64,000 bases of DNA from Caulobacteraceae bacterium. Lineage in GTDB: Bacteria > Pseudomonadota > Alphaproteobacteria > Caulobacterales > Caulobacteraceae. The stretch lies in NCBI GenBank assembly GCA_947475415.1, contig CANJLH010000005.1, forward strand, positions 142,292 through 206,291. Reading direction: 5' to 3'. Below, piece by piece: positions 4,122 to 12,208 of this stretch. The notes beneath the pieces were generated by a model. It did not search any database, had not been told where the DNA came from, and was given only the letters and a program-made list of their open reading frames with translations. A program made the translations under genes and the position numbers. Position 1 is the stretch's first letter, and every line of letters begins with the position of its first letter.

Positions 4122-5900
4122 ATGCACGCCTACCGCACCCACACCTGCGGCGCGCTCCGCGCCGCCGACACCGGCCAGACGGTCCGCCTTTCCGGCTGGA
4201 TTCACCGCAAACGGGACCATGGCGGTCTGCTGTTCATCGACCTTCGCGACCACTATGGATTGACACAGCTAGTGCTGCATCCGGGCGACAACGACTTTTC
4301 GGTCGTTGAGCGATTGCGGGCCGAAAGTGTGATCCGGATTGACGGCGCCGTAGTGGCCCGCACGTCCGAAACCGTAAACCCGAACCTGCCAACAGGCGAA
4401 GTCGAGGTCCGCGTCGTCGCCGTAGAAGTGCTTGGCGAGGCGGCCGAGCTGCCGCTACCGGTGTTTGGCGAGCCAGACTATCCTGAAGACATCCGGCTCA
4501 AGAACCGACACCTGGACTTGCGGCGCGAGACACTACACCGCAATATCGTGTTGCGCTCCAAGGTGATCCAATCGATCCGCACCCGCATGATCGATCAGGG
4601 TTTCCTGGAGTATCAGACCCCGATTTTGACGGCGTCGTCGCCTGAGGGCGCCCGTGACTTCCTGGTGCCGTCGCGCCTGCACGCCGGCAAGTTCTATGCG
4701 CTGCCCCAGGCCCCCCAGCAGTTCAAGCAGCTGTTGATGGTCTCGGGCTTCGACCGCTACTTCCAGATCGCCCCTTGCTTCCGCGACGAGGACCTGCGCG
4801 CCGACCGGTCTTTAGAGTTCTACCAACTCGACGTGGAGATGAGCTTCGTCACCCAAGAGGATGTGTTCGCAGCCATCGAGCCTTTGATGCATGGGATCTT
4901 CGGCGAATTTGGCCAAGGCAAACCGGTGACGCCGTACCCATTCCCACGCATCCCCTATCGTGAGGCGATCGCCAAGTACGGGACTGACAAGCCAGATATG
5001 CGCAATCCGGTCGTGATGCAGACCGTTTCTGAGCATTTCCGCGATGGTGGTTTTGGCCTATTCGCTCGGATCCTTGAGGATCCCAAGAACGCGATCTGGG
5101 GCATTCCCGCACCCAAGGGCGGTTCGCGCGCCTTTTGCGACAGGATGAATTCCTGGGCGCAAGGCGAAGGCCAGCCCGGTCTAGGTTACATCTTCTGGAG
5201 CGAAGACCAGGGCGGTTGGGGTGGACCGATCGCCAAGAACCTGGGAGCCGAGGGGACGGCAGCAGTCATGGGGCAACTCGGATTAGGGCAGGGTGACGCC
5301 GCCTTCTTCGTCGCCGGGGATCCGAAGGTTTTCTACAAGTTCGCCGGCGCCGCGCGTACGCGGGTTGGAGCGGAGCTGAAGCTGGTCGATGAAGATCGTT
5401 TCGAGTTCGTCTGGATCGTCGATTTCCCAATGTATGAACTGAACGAGGAGACCGGCCTTGTCGACTTCTCGCACAATCCCTTCTCGATGCCGCAAGGGGA
5501 ACTGGAGGCCCTGGATTCCAAGGATCCCCTCGACGTCCTGGCCTACCAGTACGACATCGTCTGCAACGGCTATGAACTTTGCTCCGGCGCAATCCGCAAC
5601 CATCGCCCGGAATTGATGCTGCGCGCCTTCGAGATCGCTGGATATGGCCCCGAGGTGGTCGAGGAACAGTTCGGCGGCATGCTCAACGCCTTCCGACACG
5701 GCGCGCCGCCCCACGGCGGCCTGGCGCCCGGCATCGACCGCATCGTCATGTTGTTGGCTGGCGAGACGGCAATCCGCGAAGTGATCGCCTTCCCGCTCAA
5801 TCAGCAGGGGCAGGATCTGATGATGAACGCCCCGTCAGACGTGACGGAAAAGCAATTGAAGGAACTGCACATCCGAACGGCAATGCCGATCAGGGTCTGA
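4122..5900 (+). CDS. aspS: Aspartyl-tRNA synthetase, non-discriminating type predicted
   Basis: Charges tRNA-Asp, and probably tRNA-Asn, with aspartate. The 592-residue protein has the bacterial class IIb layout: N-terminal OB anticodon-binding domain, class II catalytic core with motif 2 ([10 protein letters not shown]) near 220-230, a GAD insertion domain and motif 3 (GLAPGIDR) at 533-540. The anticodon-domain segment HRKRDHGG carries His33, aligning with the His31 typical of non-discriminating AspRS such as that of Pseudomonas aeruginosa, and NPNLPTG keeps the accompanying Gly. Such enzymes work with the GatCAB amidotransferase. The 3' end overlaps the convergent pentapeptide gene by 11 bases. 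Confidence 0.96.
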
Positions 5901-6609
5901 CGTCAGTCGCCGAGGATGATGGTGCGCGGCCCCCAGGCCGCCGGAGCAGTATCTGGACACTGGCGCACCCTCGCGCCACCAACTTGTTCGGCAGCCGTGT
6001 GCGGGCGTCGCCGCAGGCTTCTTCCAACTGCGACTGCTGAAGTCCTTGCGCTTTCGAGAGGTCCGTTCCGCCGATCAGGGCGCCGGTGAGATCGGCGCCT
6101 TGGAAATCGGCGCCCTCGAACAGACCTCCATTCAAGATGGAGCCCTGCAAGGAGGCGTCACGGAAACTGGCGCGGCGGGCGTCTGCCCCGCTGAGGCTTG
6201 CGCCCATAAGGCCGGCCTTATCAAGGCCAGCATCCGCTAATTTGGCCGCCGATAGGTTGACGCCTCGCAGTTCCGCCCCCTGCAGTTTCGCTCCGGTGAG
6301 GTTCGCCCCAGCGAAGCTGGCGCCGGTCATTCCAGCCTGACGAAGATCCGCACGGCTAAGATCTGCGTTGTCAAAGTTTGACCCTACAAAACGTGAGCCC
6401 CGCAGGTCGGCGCCGACCATGGAGGCGCCGGTGAATTTGGCTCCGATGAACTGCGCGCCGACCAGCTTACGGCCCGACAATTCACACCTGGAGCAGGCGC
6501 CGCCGAAGGACACTACGCGCGCCACCGCCCGATCGCCTGCAAACACGTTGCGTGGCGCGGCAAGCATTAGCGCCGAGGCGACAAACAGCAGAGTGGCGAG
6601 GCGGATCAT
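5890..6609 (-). CDS. Secreted pentapeptide-repeat protein (larger paralogue)
   Basis: The 239-residue product starts at the ATG at 6609, which gives a clean signal peptide ([16 protein letters not shown], then APRNVFA). The mature part is almost all A(D/N/S)LxG-type pentapeptides, expected to fold as a right-handed quadrilateral beta-helix. It opens with a CSRC motif just before the repeats and closes with a conserved cap containing ACGD...RGC. The next upstream minus-strand gene has the same architecture, so the two are tandem paralogues. DNA-mimic pentapeptide proteins such as Qnr are cytoplasmic; this one should be periplasmic or outer-surface. Function unknown. Confidence 0.85.
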
Positions 6610-6686
6610 CAAACACCTGAAAGGCAAGTTCGCGCCATTTCACGCATAACCTGGCCACAGCGCCACTTAATTCGCGGTAACGCGCC

Positions 6687-7175
6687 TCAGCAGGCCCGGA
6701 TATGCAGGCCGGCAGGCACGGTGGTCGCAGTGTCGCCACAGGCCTGGTTCAGTTGCGCCTGGGTGACCCCCACGACGCGATCCATTTCCGCGCCGGAAAA
6801 ATTGGCGCCGGACAAGTTCGCGCCACGCAGGTTCGCCCCCTGAAGGTATGTCCCAACGAATGAGGCGTTGGTCAGGTTCGCGCCCGCAAAATTAGCGCCG
6901 CCGAACACAGCGCCGTAGGCGTCGACATCCCGAAGGTCCGCGCCCGAGAAATTCGACCTGTTCATCACCGACAGGCTCAAGTCTGCTTGGCGAAGTCGCG
7001 CTCCGCTGAAGTTTCGACCATGCATTTCAGCTCCACCAAAGCTCGCCTGGAAGAGGTTGCAGCCTGGGCAACTTGCACCGCCGCGAGCGCGGCTAATCTG
7101 AGCCGCGTTTTGAGCCTGGGCGGGTAGAGCTAAAGCAAGGGCGCTGAGTAGGCCAACGGTCAAGTGCGATCTCAT
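6687..7175 (-). CDS. Secreted pentapeptide-repeat protein (smaller paralogue)
   Basis: A 162-residue protein with a signal peptide (MRSHLTVGLLSALALALPAQA), a CPGC motif at the beginning of the mature chain, about 15 pentapeptide units (SGADLRD, AGANLTN, RGANLSG and similar), and a cap ending ACGDTATTVPAGLHIRAC. The same four-Cys bracket frames the downstream paralogue 77 bases away, which suggests disulfide-capped ends on an exported beta-helix. The NrdJ-like gene lies 109 bases upstream on the same strand, so the three may be co-transcribed. Function unknown. Confidence 0.85.
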   Translation of the reverse strand: MRSHLTVGLLSALALALPAQAQNAAQISRARGGASCPGCNLFQASFGGAEMHGRNFSGARLRQADLSLSVMNRSNFSGADLRDVDAYGAVFGGANFAGANLTNASFVGTYLQGANLRGANLSGANFSGAEMDRVVGVTQAQLNQACGDTATTVPAGLHIRAC

Positions 7176-7284
7176 TATGGAACGCGCCTTTCAAATTTCG
7201 TCGTTTTCAGGCGGGCCGAGCAATTCTCCAGCCAACTAAAAGGCACCCTATCAGACGCAGATGAACAGGGCGTTGGCGGCGCGG

Positions 7285-9663
7285 TTACCCCGCCAGATCG
7301 TCATCCGCGCGCCCCGCGCGTGTCCCACAACTTTCGCAAATCAGGCTGGCGCCCTTTTGCACTACAGCCATATCACCGCAGGCAGGGCACGCCTCTGCAG
7401 GATCCGATCGACTACGGCGGCTTGTCGCGCCGACTGGCAAGAACACCAGGTTGTCAGGCGCCGCTCCGCGTGAAAAACCCCGAGAGATGAACCTCGAGGC
7501 GGGTTGCGGTTCGGCGTCCGCCGCACCCCGACCTAGTCCATCGGCGTTCAGGGCCGCAGCGTCGGCATTCGCTAGGTCGTGGCGCTCAAGATAGGAAACC
7601 CCAAGTTCTCGGAAAATGTAATCAAGAATTGAGGTCGCCGACTTCACCGAGTCGTTGCCGGTTACTGGCCCAGCGGGTTCAAACCGGGTAAAAACGAATG
7701 CCTCGACGAACTCGTCCAGCGGAACGCCGTACTGAAGGCCAATGGATATCGAGATCGCGAAATTGTTCATCAGCGATCGGAAGGCGGCCCCTTCCTTGTG
7801 CATGTCGATGAAGATTTCGCCGAGTTCGCCATCGTCATACTCCCCGGTGTGGATGTAGACCTTATGGCCGCCGACGCTTGCCTTCTGAATATAGCCCTTA
7901 CGGCGGTCGGGCAGCTTGCGTCTTGTCCTGTCGCGCTCGACGACACGCTCCAACACACGCTCTGAAACCGGCTCGGGCCTGGGCTCAGTCCTCACCTCAG
8001 GCTTCAGTTCAGGTGTCGCTAAGCGCGGTTCCTTCGGTACAGTAATTTCAAGGTGCGCAGATTGAGGCGGGCTTCGTCTGCGTAGGTGGAGAGCCTCCAC
8101 GCCCGCAGCGCACGCAGCATCGAACCATGTTTGCGCCAACCGAGGTGGGGCGTCCCAAGGAAGTTCAAGTTCGGCGATTGCCGGCGCGGCCAGGGCGGGC
8201 TGCAGGGCGCCCAACATTGCGAGATAAGGTCCTTCGCCCAGTACATCGCTGGTGCGGAGGACCTTGCGTTGTTCTTCACCAAGGAAGGGGGCGTTCGACA
8301 GATCGTGGGCGCCCAATGCGAAGGCTTGGGCCACCTCGATGTCCGCATCAGAGAATCCCCAGTATCGCAAAAGATCAAATCCTGGGTCCGACATTCGTTC
8401 CGGGTCGACATCCAGAACGTCCCGGAGGAAACCTTCGCCGATGACCGCACAATTGACTGCATCGGCAAGTTTCGCGGCGCCGGGCAGGGCCTGCTCAACG
8501 GCCGCGATCTCATGAGAGGTCAATCCTTTGCCTAGAAGCGCGTCGCGACTAACGCCAGGCGCGCCTTCAAGCGTCAAACAACCGATCAACAATTGGCGCG
8601 CTGCGTTGACATCCGCTCCGATGGCATGAAGCGCCCGCTCGGCGACGGCTGACAGCGCACCATCGACCGATTTAGGGGTCTTCCAGGGCCGAACGCCGAT
8701 TTGTGAGACGCCAATGCGCGCGGCCAACTCGGCGTCCTCAAAAACGCCAATGCCGCCCTCAAGGGAGGGCGCCGCCTGCCAGACGACATCGCCCGCCCAT
8801 GTCACCAACTCGGATGCCGCAGCGCGCGCGGCGTCCGAGTCATAATCCAACCCTTGAGATGTCAACCAATCGCCAAGCCCGGCCAACGCGATGAGCGCGG
8901 GCTCAGGACCGGCGGCCTGCAACGCTTGGGCTGTCAGCCTTAGGACAGTCTCAAGTGCGGCGTCATCCAAACCATCATCTAACCAGAAGGCGTCCAGCCG
9001 CACCGCAGCCCTGCGCGCAGTCGCGGCGCGTCGAACACGTTCTACCGCTTCATCCCCGGGGCTTAGCACCACACGGCCGGTTTCCCAGGCGGCAAGGATG
9101 GCTGTTTGCGTATCGGCGTCTGGTGAAAGCGCACAAACAAGGCTGAACGGCGCGGCCGGCGCCTTTGGCGGTCGGGCGCGCCAATGCTCCGCACCAGCTT
9201 TCGCTAGAGTGATCGCATCAAGGATTAGCGCATCGGATGCTCCACACTCTCGGGCTGCTAAGGCTGCGCGCGCCAGGCTGACATTGCGCGCCGGATCCGA
9301 GCAGGCTGCGGAATCGCCCTCACATCGCCGAACCGCATCGATGACTGCCTGTAGAGCTTCTGAGACTTGGCCGACCGCCGCCGTCGCCGCTCGACGTCCA
9401 CGTTCTGTCAACAGGTGTCGGTCGATGGCTTCACTGAAGGAGGCGCCGCTCGCTGACTCGATGGGCGACGACTGGGGCTCAGCAATAGCAATGACCCGGC
9501 GATCGATCGCCTCGTTCAATTCTACTCGAAAGCGCGCCCGCGCTTGACTGTCATCCGCCTGAGCCCGCTCTGTGATCCTGCTTCCCAAGGGTTCCATTGC
9601 TGCGTCTTCCTGGGTCGTCGATTCGACGGGTGTTACCTTCGCCTCAAATTTGATGTTCATCAT
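7285..9663 (-). CDS. Degenerate NrdJ-like protein with TSCPD domain and C-terminal zinc ribbon
   Basis: The last 210 of 792 residues match the end of alphaproteobacterial class II ribonucleotide reductase NrdJ: a TSCPD domain (about 590-700; [20 protein letters not shown], then [11 protein letters not shown]) and a four-Cys ribbon (C759, C762, C776, C779). The preceding region still follows NrdJ weakly, for example YDSD at 274-277, a [13 protein letters not shown] stretch near 430-442 and [10 protein letters not shown] near 485-494. The reductase NPCSE motif and the barrel's catalytic cysteines are absent, and NrdJ proteins are normally about 1,200 residues. I infer a pseudoenzyme with another role. 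Start: ATGATG at 9663, with GGGAG 6 bases upstream; a longer reading to 9744 is possible but unsupported. Confidence 0.85.
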
Positions 9664-9829
9664 GACCGACTCCCGGTCGAGTAGGTTACCCTGACTGCTC
9701 GCATGGGCAATAGATATTGGGCTCAAGGGCTGACGCCACACCATATCTTGGCTTTTTGCGTGACTGGACGTCGCTGGCCGGCAGACCTATAGTCCGCCAG
9801 CCCTTGTGCAACGCAGAGTTCCGCCAATC
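9664..9829. promoter_or_regulatory. Divergent promoter region with an SD-loop hairpin at the nrdJ-like start
   Basis: This 166-base gap separates the divergent NrdJ-like and NDUFA12 genes and should hold both promoters. On the minus strand, GACCG-GGAGT-CGGTC (9664-9678) forms a 5-bp hairpin with the Shine-Dalgarno GGAG in its loop, directly before the ATG. Further up, GATATTGG and CCATATC form an imperfect inverted repeat near 9713-9747. I found no convincing cobalamin riboswitch or NrdR box. Confidence 0.35.
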
Positions 9830-10234
9830 GTGTTCAAGTTCCTGCAATCGATGTTCACTTGGTGGAATGGGGCGACAATTGGCATCCGTTTTACAGTCGG
9901 TCGCCGGGCCCGCTTTGTCGGCCAGGATGACGCCGGCAATCGTTATTTCGAAGCCCGAGACGACAAGGATTCCTTTGACAAGGGGCTCAAGCGCCGCTGG
10001 GTGATATATGAGGGCTATGCGGAGGCCTCGAAGGTGCCCCCTGAGTGGCACGGCTGGTTGCATCATACCTTCGATGACCCGCCGAATGTGACGCCACTTC
10101 CCGTTAAGTCCTGGGAAAAGGCGCATATTCCAAACCTGACCGGCACGATCCACGCCTATAAACCGCAAGGGGCCATCGCCCGCGGCGGCGAACGGCAGGC
10201 CGCGGCAGGTGATTACGAAGCCTGGGTCCCCTAG
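9830..10234 (+). CDS. NADH:ubiquinone oxidoreductase accessory subunit, NDUFA12 family
   Basis: Homologue of mitochondrial complex I subunit NDUFA12 (B17.2), one of the few supernumerary subunits also present in alphaproteobacterial complex I. Diagnostic pieces are the N-terminal FTWWNGATIGIRFT, then GQDDAGNRYFEARD, RRWVIYEGYAEASKVPPEWHGWLH and PHIP-like KAHIPNLTGT. The family usually begins just before FTWWNG, so I take the GTG at 9830 (134 residues); an in-frame GTG at 9806 would add eight residues. It is followed after 8 bases by the DUF2155 gene. Confidence 0.88.
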   Translation: MFKFLQSMFTWWNGATIGIRFTVGRRARFVGQDDAGNRYFEARDDKDSFDKGLKRRWVIYEGYAEASKVPPEWHGWLHHTFDDPPNVTPLPVKSWEKAHIPNLTGTIHAYKPQGAIARGGERQAAAGDYEAWVP

Positions 10235-10242
10235 GAATTCAG

Positions 10243-10938
10243 ATGTATTATCGTCCACCGATCACGGTCGCATTCGCACTTTGTCTCTGCGCTATGGCAT
10301 GCGTCGGATTGGTGAATGCGCAACCCGCGCCTGGACCAGTTTCGGAAACGCCTCCCGGGACGGCAATTGTTGCGCCGACAGATCCCGGAATCCCGTCTGG
10401 GTCGCCGCCGGAAGAGACCGCGCCAGCCCTGTCTGGTGAAGAAGCCCCTCCCAGCGTGGTGACACCACCGATCGCAACCTCTGCGCCGGCTGTTCAAGCT
10501 AATGAAGTGGCGGCCGCTGCGCCACCAGAAGCGAAGGTCGCTGAAACCCCGGCCGAAGCGCTGAAGCGTACGCGTTCCAATGTCGCAATCATCCAGGCGC
10601 TCGACAAAGTCACCGCCGAGAGCATCCGGTTCGAAGCCGAGGTGGGAAAGCCGGTCCGCTATAAATCGCTAATCTTTACAGTTAAGGCGTGTGAAAATGC
10701 CGCCCCGGATGAAGCTTACGACGATTCAATCGTCTATCTGACAATCGATTCTCAGCCCCGCTCTGCGCCAGGCAAGTCCGCCCAACCGGCCAGGCAGGCA
10801 TTCCGTGGTTGGATGTACGCCTCGTCTCCAGGGCTGAATCCCCTGGAGCACCCTGTCTATGACGCTTGGGTGATCACCTGCAAGGCCGTCGTGCCGGATC
10901 CCGGCGCATCGCCGAAGGGTGGAACACCTAAAGCCTGA
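10243..10938 (+). CDS. DUF2155 family exported protein
   Basis: The 231-residue protein has a signal peptide (about 1-26, ending GLVNA), a Pro/Ala-rich low-complexity linker (about 27-110), then the DUF2155 domain (about 115-220): a [14 protein letters not shown] start, FTVKAC, an [24 protein letters not shown]-type core and an ITC end. The two Cys may form a disulfide in the periplasm. The function is not established. NDUFA12-DUF2155-aat is a neighbourhood I recognise from alphaproteobacteria. Its final 82 bases overlap the convergent aat gene. Confidence 0.85.
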
Positions 10939-11525
10939 AAATCCGCATCCTCTCTGAGCGCCAGTTTCAATCTGCGGCGATACTCACGGCGGCTGATCTC
11001 TTCAGTTCCAAATTGCGAAAGGTGTTCGGTCTGGAACTGAGCGTCCAGCAATTTGAATCGACCGGCGATCAGACGCGCCACAAGGTGCACGAGCGCCGCC
11101 TTGCTAGCGTCCCGCTCGATGGAGAACATGCTTTCACCGAAGAATGCTCCGCGCAACGAGACCCCATAGAGACCTCCCACCAATTCGCCCTCACGCCAAC
11201 ATTCAACACTGTGTGCGTGTCCCAGATGGTGTAGCGCGAGATAGAGTCGTTCGATCGACTGGTTGATCCAGGTGTCCGGATGGCCCGGACGTGGTGCTGC
11301 GCAGGCCGCCACCACATCCGAAAACACCGTGTCAATACGGACTTCAAATCGGTCGCTGCGGACAGTCCGGGCCAATCTACGGGAAATGTGAAATCGGTCG
11401 AAGGGCAGGACCCCGCGCCGCTCCGGATCGACCAGAAACACTCGATCATCATTGCGGGAGTCAGCCATGGGAAAAACTCCATGCGCGTAGCAGTTGAGCA
11501 ATTCCTGGGGGCCGAACAGATCCAT
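10857..11525 (-). CDS. aat: Leucyl/phenylalanyl-tRNA-protein transferase
   Basis: Aat adds Leu or Phe to proteins with N-terminal Arg or Lys, marking them for ClpAP through the N-end rule. The ATG at 11525 gives the standard start ([20 protein letters not shown]) and a 222-residue protein; an upstream start at 11579 would add 18 unconserved residues. Family landmarks are the [36 protein letters not shown] and [15 protein letters not shown] segments. The C-terminus VITQAS matches the usual TQTS-type ending, so the 82-base antisense overlap with the DUF2155 gene involves real coding sequence on both strands. Confidence 0.95.
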
Positions 11526-11572
11526 GGTCGTGGGGCCTAGCCTAGTGGATTGGAAGCCGCCATGTTGGCGGT

Positions 11573-12208
11573 GTGACAAAGGGTCGGTTCATTACATTCG
11601 AAGGCGGCGAAGGGGCGGGTAAGTCAACCCAACTCCGAAAGCTTGCTGCGCAAATGACTGAAGCGGGGCGCGAGGTCGTAATGACCCGCGAACCCGGTGG
11701 CTCACCCGGCGCGGAACGGATCCGCGAACTGCTGGTGAATGGCGCTGCGGACCGTTGGTCGGCGATGACCGAGACCCTCTTGATGTACGCCGCGCGACGC
11801 GATCACATTGAACGGGTGATCGCCCCCGCCCTGAAGCGGGGCGCCTGGGTGCTATGTGACCGATTTGCCGACTCAACACGGGCATATCAGGGCGCCGCGG
11901 GCGGCGCCGACCCGGCGCTTATCGCGGCCTTGGAGTCCATGGTGTTGGGGGATGTGCGGCCTGACCTCACTTTGATCCTGGACCTACCGGTGGAGGTTGG
12001 GCTGGTCCGGGCCGGTGAGCGCGGTGCGGCCGAGAGCCGGTTTGAGTCTAAGGGTGCGCCATTTCACCGGCGCCTGCGACAAAGTTTCCTCGACATCGCC
12101 AAGGCTGAGCCGGCGCGATGCCTCGTAATTGATGCGGCGAAGTCAGAAGACGTGGTCCAGACCGCGATCTTCAGGGCGGTTAGCCTTCGGTTTGGACCCA
12201 ATGGCTGA
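11573..12208 (+). CDS. tmk: Thymidylate kinase
   Basis: Phosphorylates dTMP to dTDP. The 211-residue protein has the P-loop [12 protein letters not shown] at the N-terminus, the DR(F/Y) motif in [14 protein letters not shown], and [11 protein letters not shown] before the lid. The start is GTG at 11573 ([12 protein letters not shown]), 47 bases from the divergent aat start. The end overlaps the holB start by 8 bases, giving the alphaproteobacterial tmk-holB pair. Confidence 0.96.

Follow-up and report, generated by a model that had tools for sequence, protein, structure and literature searches.

An NrdJ-derived pseudoenzyme of Caulobacterales, preceded in Caulobacteraceae by an NrdR-type box pair

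Catalytically dead homologues of the RNR large subunit occur in betaherpesviruses, where they are RNR-derived pseudoenzymes with a non-catalytic job. In bacteria, the tail of the class II enzyme NrdJ has been studied in S. nassauensis. According to passages of Loderer et al. (2017, PMC5704485), C920, C923, C936 and C939 are the proposed zinc ligands of this NrdJ, zinc measurements having fitted three of the four directly, and C933/C945 form a redox pair proposed to re-reduce the active site. The TSCPD-containing tail is also needed for dATP/dGTP-induced oligomers (passages of PMC5704485). In most bacteria NrdR has two boxes separated by a spacer of 15-16 bp, as stated in part of PMC12051234. 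C. crescentus imports B12 and does not make it; B12 serves dNTP production there, with NrdJ listed as CCNA_01966 (sections of PMC6538847). Within the open-licence PMC literature, we found no description of an inactive bacterial NrdJ, no experiment on the dead NrdJ protein and little on the TSCPD domain.

The window analysed here is a stretch of 64,000 nucleotides from a Caulobacteraceae genome of 3.92 Mb (98% complete), whose genus was read as Phenylobacterium from sequence. Most named relatives of the locus (best 80 of 108) belong to Phenylobacterium and Caulobacter, and the locus of G023, a genome from the same genus, also occurs in the P. haematophilum record (L052 and L091). A single open frame runs over 7285..9744 on the (-) strand and codes 819 aa counted from the first ATG. 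The start at 9663 (7285..9663, (-); 792 aa plus stop) was preferred, since the longer version would extend across the upstream boxes described below. The initial annotation had placed an NrdJ-derived protein at 7285-9663, and the open frame is real. Its estimate of a protein about 400 residues too short was also accurate, since frames of six full-length NrdJs from the same order measure 1196-1272 aa, and the isolated NrdJ-like landmarks it had reported upstream are present in the translation. In a Pfam scan of the 792-aa protein, TSCPD (PF12637) was the sole domain above cut-off, at residues 595-687. NF005736, the alphaproteobacterial NrdJ model of 1222 positions, matched the protein piecewise (best stretch 346-742) with 385 bits, below the cut-off of 1737 for a functional class II RNR NrdJ. 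The best NF005736 score in the genome search was 349 bits. The N-terminus has diverged: the window protein does not have the EVLAPAxWTxARVEAWLDWA-like start found in many Phenylobacterium relatives (L002, L004, L008 and other same-genus loci).

Catalytic residues were tallied in 111 dead rows (five repeats, hence 106 distinct) aligned with 19 full-length NrdJs. The radical cysteine (reference position 501) and cysteines 224 and 512, which we take to be the two active-site cysteines reduced at each turnover, were present in 19/19 live and 0/106 distinct dead copies. The NPCxE finger loop with its thiyl-radical cysteine was distributed in the same way (19/19 live, 0/106 distinct dead). Its NPC was a gap in all 111 dead rows, and the 792-aa protein contains no NPCxE motif. 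The PTGTIG and SGGTTRRAAK stretches were deleted or rewritten in nearly all dead rows. The tail of live NrdJs carries six cysteines (19/19). The window protein has a four-Cys zinc ribbon at residues 759-779 (cysteines 759/762/776/779; 7327..7389, (-)), in which the redox pair of live NrdJ is missing, cysteine roles being those given in passages of PMC5704485. The four zinc cysteines were kept in 105/106 dead copies; in the remaining one, L083, the frame stops short of the ribbon. Equivalents of the C-terminal redox pair, by contrast, were found in 19/19 live and 0/106 dead copies. Dead row L112 has five tail cysteines, the fifth lying off the redox-pair positions. The electron path has therefore been lost and the structural zinc site retained. 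By its sequence, the 792-aa protein is thus a pseudoenzyme, i.e. an enzyme homologue without catalytic residues. This bears out what had been noted from the window alone, namely a missing NPCSE motif and no active-site cysteine pair, the latter lost in 106/106 copies at positions 224 and 512; a full set of active-site cysteines in the alignment with NrdJ would have spoken for an enzyme, and the dead rows lack them. The four-Cys ribbon noted at 759-779 also stands, with the refinement that two of the six tail cysteines of live NrdJ have gone. NrdJ-type tails of viral contigs fit the six-cysteine pattern in 34/35 cases, L223 ending before it. Three viral-contig frames of 220-266 aa (L206, L207 and L236) contain TSCPD and a six-cysteine tail, like a detached NrdJb.

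The remnant of the RNR barrel covers residues ~40-535 (8059..9546, (-)), from which the finger loop and a number of substrate/effector stretches have been deleted or altered. AlphaFold2 modelled it confidently, with block means of 83-98 across residues 41-540. VIA-align superposed the model on T. maritima NrdJ 3o0n (Z 20.6, 346 aligned, rmsd 4.5) and on 7b9q (Z 19.2, 474 aligned, rmsd 7.0). The structure prediction proposed in the initial annotation thus aligns the remnant to RNR structures at Z ~20, and the modelled fold is still RNR-like, though reduced. Residues 107-153 (window 9205-9345) are the most conserved piece of the remnant, with the pattern RCxGDxxACxDPxxNxxLxR. Cysteines 114 and 121 of this pattern do not vary across a 60-row alignment, though in NrdJ they are not catalytic. 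The TSCPD domain occupies residues 582-701 (7561..7920, (-)), contains no cysteine and is 75-91% identical to the TSCPD of 15 other NrdJ or relic sequences. It was poorly predicted within the full-length model and was modelled separately. Foldseek of this model against the PDB gave no match at E<=0.001; the best VIA-align Z was 5.0 (3r07_C), IscU/SufU entries reaching 3.3-4.7, and the fold was accordingly not used to assign a function.

Substitution rates were estimated from 36 disjoint pairs, with medians taken from the 23 pairs with overall dN <0.14. Median omega among these close pairs was 0.13 over the full length; the barrel remnant had 0.14-0.19, and the tail 0.06. Pairs with dN >=0.14, 13 in number, were dropped and gave overall omega values of 0.23-0.75, some regional values exceeding 1, with dS saturating under the simple method used. 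Mean pairwise TSCPD identity was 0.87 in 23 dead copies, hand-picked to span families, versus 0.866 in nine live copies of the same order; in ten live NrdJs from other orders it was 0.838. Conversely, identity over residues 161-340 was 0.73 in live versus 0.225 in dead copies, and barrel identity over the order among dead copies was 0.22-0.27. These figures indicate that purifying selection acts on the dead NrdJ protein in Caulobacter relatives. The conserved tail and decayed barrel perceived in the window protein thus hold over the order. Loss of catalysis with selective retention, as had been suggested, agrees with the residue tallies, the low close-pair omega and a TSCPD identity equal to that of live copies; random drift, named in the initial annotation as the mark of a plain pseudogene, does not describe close pairs, in which substitution is not neutral.

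The spread of the gene was surveyed in an even draw of 160 genomes from the order with completeness of 90% or more, using frame length as a proxy for live or dead. A match was found in 150/160. Within the window's own family, Caulobacteraceae (f1), 29/32 other genomes match, with frames of 574-994 aa, none being full length. Frames listed for family f5 are at least 1196 aa, f4 is mixed, and most frames of f2 and f3 measure 750-1060 aa. The remaining 10/160 genomes gave no match, and the five inspected (5/5) were clean losses. Elsewhere in the analysis, weak matches in G250, G267, G272, G337, G346 and G348 were left aside. The dead NrdJ gene is dispensable in evolution. The named loci are the best 80 of 108 relatives, and one of the two search patterns was the RCEGD..AC motif of dead copies. 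A C-terminal frame was found in 77 of these best 80 of 108, with NPCxE in 0/77; because the search pattern came from dead copies, this lack of live copies is no frequency. Three of the 77 come from strains named C. vibrioides, and all three are of the dead form. At its cut-off, NF005736 found nothing in 14 control genomes, C. vibrioides included, the profile being one that class I enzymes also match.

A quick tree of 58 rows (19 live and 39 dead), with long branches among the dead copies, grouped the 38 Caulobacterales dead copies in one clade (SH-aLRT 100), nested among live NrdJs from that order. Lineage f119 has a dead copy outside this clade, so the tree needs at least two changes. A tree of TSCPD only was poorly resolved and placed L154, L155, L158, L159 and L160, weakly, among other orders; the f5 rows L038 and L039 fell on an implausible branch and were taken to be mis-cut, and no row was obtained for L168. 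As far as sequence can tell, the tallies and the tree together demonstrate that the radical, active-site, finger-loop and redox-pair residues were lost, with the TSCPD and the zinc ligands kept, in one Caulobacterales clade.

Seven relics from other alphaproteobacterial families (L154-L160) have frames of 918, 301, 280, 278, 565, 667 and 530 aa, respectively. NPCxE was found in 0/7, and TSCPD in 6/6 of those scanned. L155, L156 and L157 (278-301 aa) comprise TSCPD without a barrel, and L154 and L158-L160 have decayed barrels. The zinc ribbon is missing from 5/7. With the barrel missing in three relics and the ribbon in five, TSCPD is therefore the feature common to all. Class I NrdA was found in 7/7 relic genomes, one of which (G188) has a further large PF02867 match. 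The divergent neighbour of the window gene, an NDUFA12 homologue (9806..10234, (+)), was found in 78/80 named loci (best 80 of 108), in 6/7 relic loci of other lineages and in 5/10 live-NrdJ loci of other orders. Just downstream of the dead gene lie two pentapeptide-repeat proteins with signal-peptide-like starts (5890-6627 and 6687-7175, (-)), the nearer one (6687..7175, (-)) being a conserved neighbour in the survey. Matches to each were seen in 69/80 named loci (best 80 of 108) and next to the majority of live NrdJs in the order as well.

Two NrdR-type boxes lie upstream of the dead gene: box 1 (AGCCAAGATATGGTGT on the gene strand) at 9738..9753 (-) and box 2 (GCCCAATATCTATTGC on the gene strand) at 9707..9722 (-). 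They are 31 bp apart, start to start, and box 2 is 43 bp before the preferred start codon. A spacer of 15-16 bp between 16-bp boxes corresponds to 31-32 bp start to start. The pair was first spotted by eye; pairs were then scored against what we take to be the NrdR box consensus and compared with Markov shuffles. The window pair scored 23 of 32, a value reached by 0/200 shuffles. A single-box scan of the window with up to three mismatches per box returned nothing.

The pair was detected at p<=0.01 in all 78 testable loci among the named Caulobacteraceae loci (best 80 of 108; two untestable). It was also present at this level in 12/12 further Caulobacteraceae loci, window included; five of these repeat named ones, giving 85 distinct loci with a pair (named loci being the best 80 of 108). 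Scores of at least 20 were reached in 72/78 named loci (best 80 of 108) versus 6/234 random windows drawn from those loci, with possible overlap of some windows with the box site. A first pass centred on the open-frame start had given p >=0.34 in L081, L086, L104, L112, L120, L124 and L149. We read these seven frames as having a first base other than the gene start, and the region anchored on NDUFA12 then passed. Across the 75 loci scoring at least 19, core positions were nearly invariant, and the next in-frame start codon followed the pair at a median distance of 44 bp, a figure that is partly circular, being taken to the first in-frame start after the box and from pairs scoring at least 19 alone. 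Outside Caulobacteraceae, pairs at p<=0.01 were patchy or missing before dead copies (f2 1/7, f3 3/9, f4 dead 0/6, relics 0/6) and before live NrdJs (0/5 in the order, 1/5 in other orders).

Similar pairs precede class I nrdA in 19/20 regions (14/15 from Phenylobacterium and 5/5 from other families), the region without a pair being 179 bases cut by a contig end. NrdR (TIGR00244 over cut-off) was found in 39/40 genomes, the window's own included, G007 having none. These sequence data demonstrate candidate NrdR sites upstream of the dead gene in Caulobacteraceae and, within the same genus, upstream of nrdA, with NrdR present. The dead NrdJ gene is apparently under the same switch as the working class I reductase. 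Genomes from which the gene has been lost bear on the ownership of the boxes. In three g11 Caulobacteraceae genomes without the gene, NDUFA12 and the pentapeptide-repeat gene are separated by ~200 bp, and the highest-scoring pair within 3.5 kb reaches 16-17, a background value; the pair was thus lost with the gene in 3/3. Two f4 g10 genomes with clean gene loss gave best pair scores of 20 and 18 over 3.5 kb, and their dead relatives show no detectable boxes; therefore the g11 genomes alone speak to pair loss. Since the pair has gone there and NDUFA12 has stayed, the boxes in Caulobacteraceae seem to belong to the dead NrdJ gene rather than to NDUFA12.

The initial annotation had left to be checked whether a complete NrdJ or NrdAB exists elsewhere in the genome. 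Class I NrdA (621 aa) and NrdB (346 aa) are present on another contig, and no second match to the 792-aa protein was found in the genome at E<=0.001. A Pfam scan of this NrdA and NrdB revealed no ATP-cone. In 5/40 genomes (G001, G010, G021, G024 and G030), frames of 582-881 aa give one more full PF02867 match in addition to NrdA and the dead copy; it is likely to be another class II RNR. From the three loci of strains named C. vibrioides, we infer that CCNA_01966 is of the dead form. CC_1887, a 105-aa protein also found in eukaryotes (part of PMC1182365), would fit the NDUFA12 neighbour of the Caulobacter NrdJ gene.

Altogether, we consider it reasonably likely that the protein is an NrdR-regulated pseudoenzyme with a non-catalytic role in dNTP supply exerted through its TSCPD domain. 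A former B12-dependent NrdJ would have ceased to work as a reductase in genomes that had class I NrdAB, and the TSCPD, the folded barrel shell and the structural zinc ribbon would have been kept under purifying selection. NrdR would repress the dead gene together with nrdA at plentiful dATP, and the protein would be made when dNTP demand is high. It may then act on dNTP supply through the TSCPD. Most likely it would bind the class I reductase, in whose NrdA and NrdB no ATP-cone was seen, and modulate it or serve as its scaffold, or it would read dNTP levels. In the latter case it would resemble the tail of S. nassauensis NrdJ, which supports dATP/dGTP-induced oligomers. The boxes favour such a link to dNTP supply. 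Live NrdJs conserve TSCPD just as well, so it could have a partner other than NrdAB. A broader proposal, which we put forward tentatively and with more doubt than confidence, is that the TSCPD of alphaproteobacterial NrdJ has a second, catalysis-independent function in dNTP homeostasis. NrdJ would have been stripped more than once where NrdAB took over (in Caulobacterales, separately in at least f119, and as barrel-less relics elsewhere), and the relic, usually beside NDUFA12, would have stayed as a regulator or accessory of the replacing reductase.

The main alternative, which we consider rather unlikely, is that TSCPD has long served alphaproteobacteria in a second role outside dNTP supply; the reductase would have decayed around it, and the boxes would simply have been inherited from the NrdJ promoter. 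TSCPD is indeed kept without a barrel in L155-L157 and with decayed barrels in L154 and L158-L160; all seven relic genomes have class I NrdA, six of the seven relics lie beside NDUFA12, and boxes go mostly undetected in f2, f3 and f4 dead copies. However, the Caulobacteraceae pair is present in every testable locus over deep divergence and was lost with the gene in g11, so it appears to be selected, and its poor detection before live NrdJs (0/5 in the order, 1/5 elsewhere) gives no support to simple inheritance from their promoter.

Three further explanations appear far less probable. A detached tail subunit passing electrons to another reductase, like the split NrdJb of Pseudomonas, would have the same make-up of TSCPD and zinc ribbon (passages of PMC9669993), and five of 40 genomes have an additional full PF02867 match, interpreted as a second class II RNR. 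Nevertheless, the other 35 have no such match and the redox cysteine pair is missing in 106/106 dead copies, a loss that argues against a relay role of the NrdJ kind and makes this proposal very improbable. Slightly more improbable still is a B12 (AdoCbl) sensor built on the old cofactor site. The uptake of B12 by C. crescentus, which does not make it (section of PMC6538847), would suit a sensor, but the finger loop and other barrel stretches are deleted, and the barrel-less TSCPD relics of ~280-300 aa argue against B12 binding as the shared function; moreover, an Rfam search of 5800-11600 gave no match up to E=1, hence no cobalamin riboswitch or other known RNA. As for a plain decaying pseudogene, the least probable of all, the missing catalytic parts and a barrel identity of 22-27% over the order would be expected of one, as would the gene of G011, from the same genus, which is split over two frames, perhaps by sequencing error. 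Yet no listed match contains an internal stop, close-pair omega is low, TSCPD identity is 0.87 and the zinc cysteines remain in 105/106 copies; it was rejected on substitution rates and conservation.

If the proposal of a second TSCPD function were true, the annotated B12-dependent RNR of Caulobacter would not be a reductase at all. A Caulobacter pathway map treats the gene as a B12-dependent dNTP route (section of PMC6538847); since the loci named C. vibrioides carry the dead form, this link through CCNA_01966 needs checking. In the dead copies, evolution has uncoupled the NrdJ tail domain from catalysis: TSCPD is ~87% identical in proteins without an active site, and its function is now directly testable in a tractable laboratory strain.

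Compared with known systems, the dead NrdJ shares with alphaproteobacterial NrdJ (NF005736/PRK07562; 7b9p, Rhodobacter sphaeroides) its descent, TSCPD, zinc ribbon, RNR-like fold and, often, the NDUFA12 neighbour. It differs in having neither the radical and active-site cysteines nor the redox pair, in being ~400 aa shorter and in scoring far below the family cut-off. The betaherpesvirus homologues are class I-derived, viral and unrelated in function, whereas the dead NrdJ is class II-derived and bacterial. With NrdJb, which provides the tail of the split class II RNR in Pseudomonas, it has in common a TSCPD (putatively IscU-like) domain and zinc ribbon set apart from a working barrel (passages of PMC9669993), but it keeps the barrel shell and has no redox cysteine pair. 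Finally, the box pair upstream of the dead NrdJ in Caulobacteraceae is a new finding. It resembles that of NrdR regulon members in its 16-bp boxes, its 15-16 bp spacer and its position before the gene; the members described in part of PMC12051234 are RNR operons coding working enzymes, and here the dead NrdJ differs.
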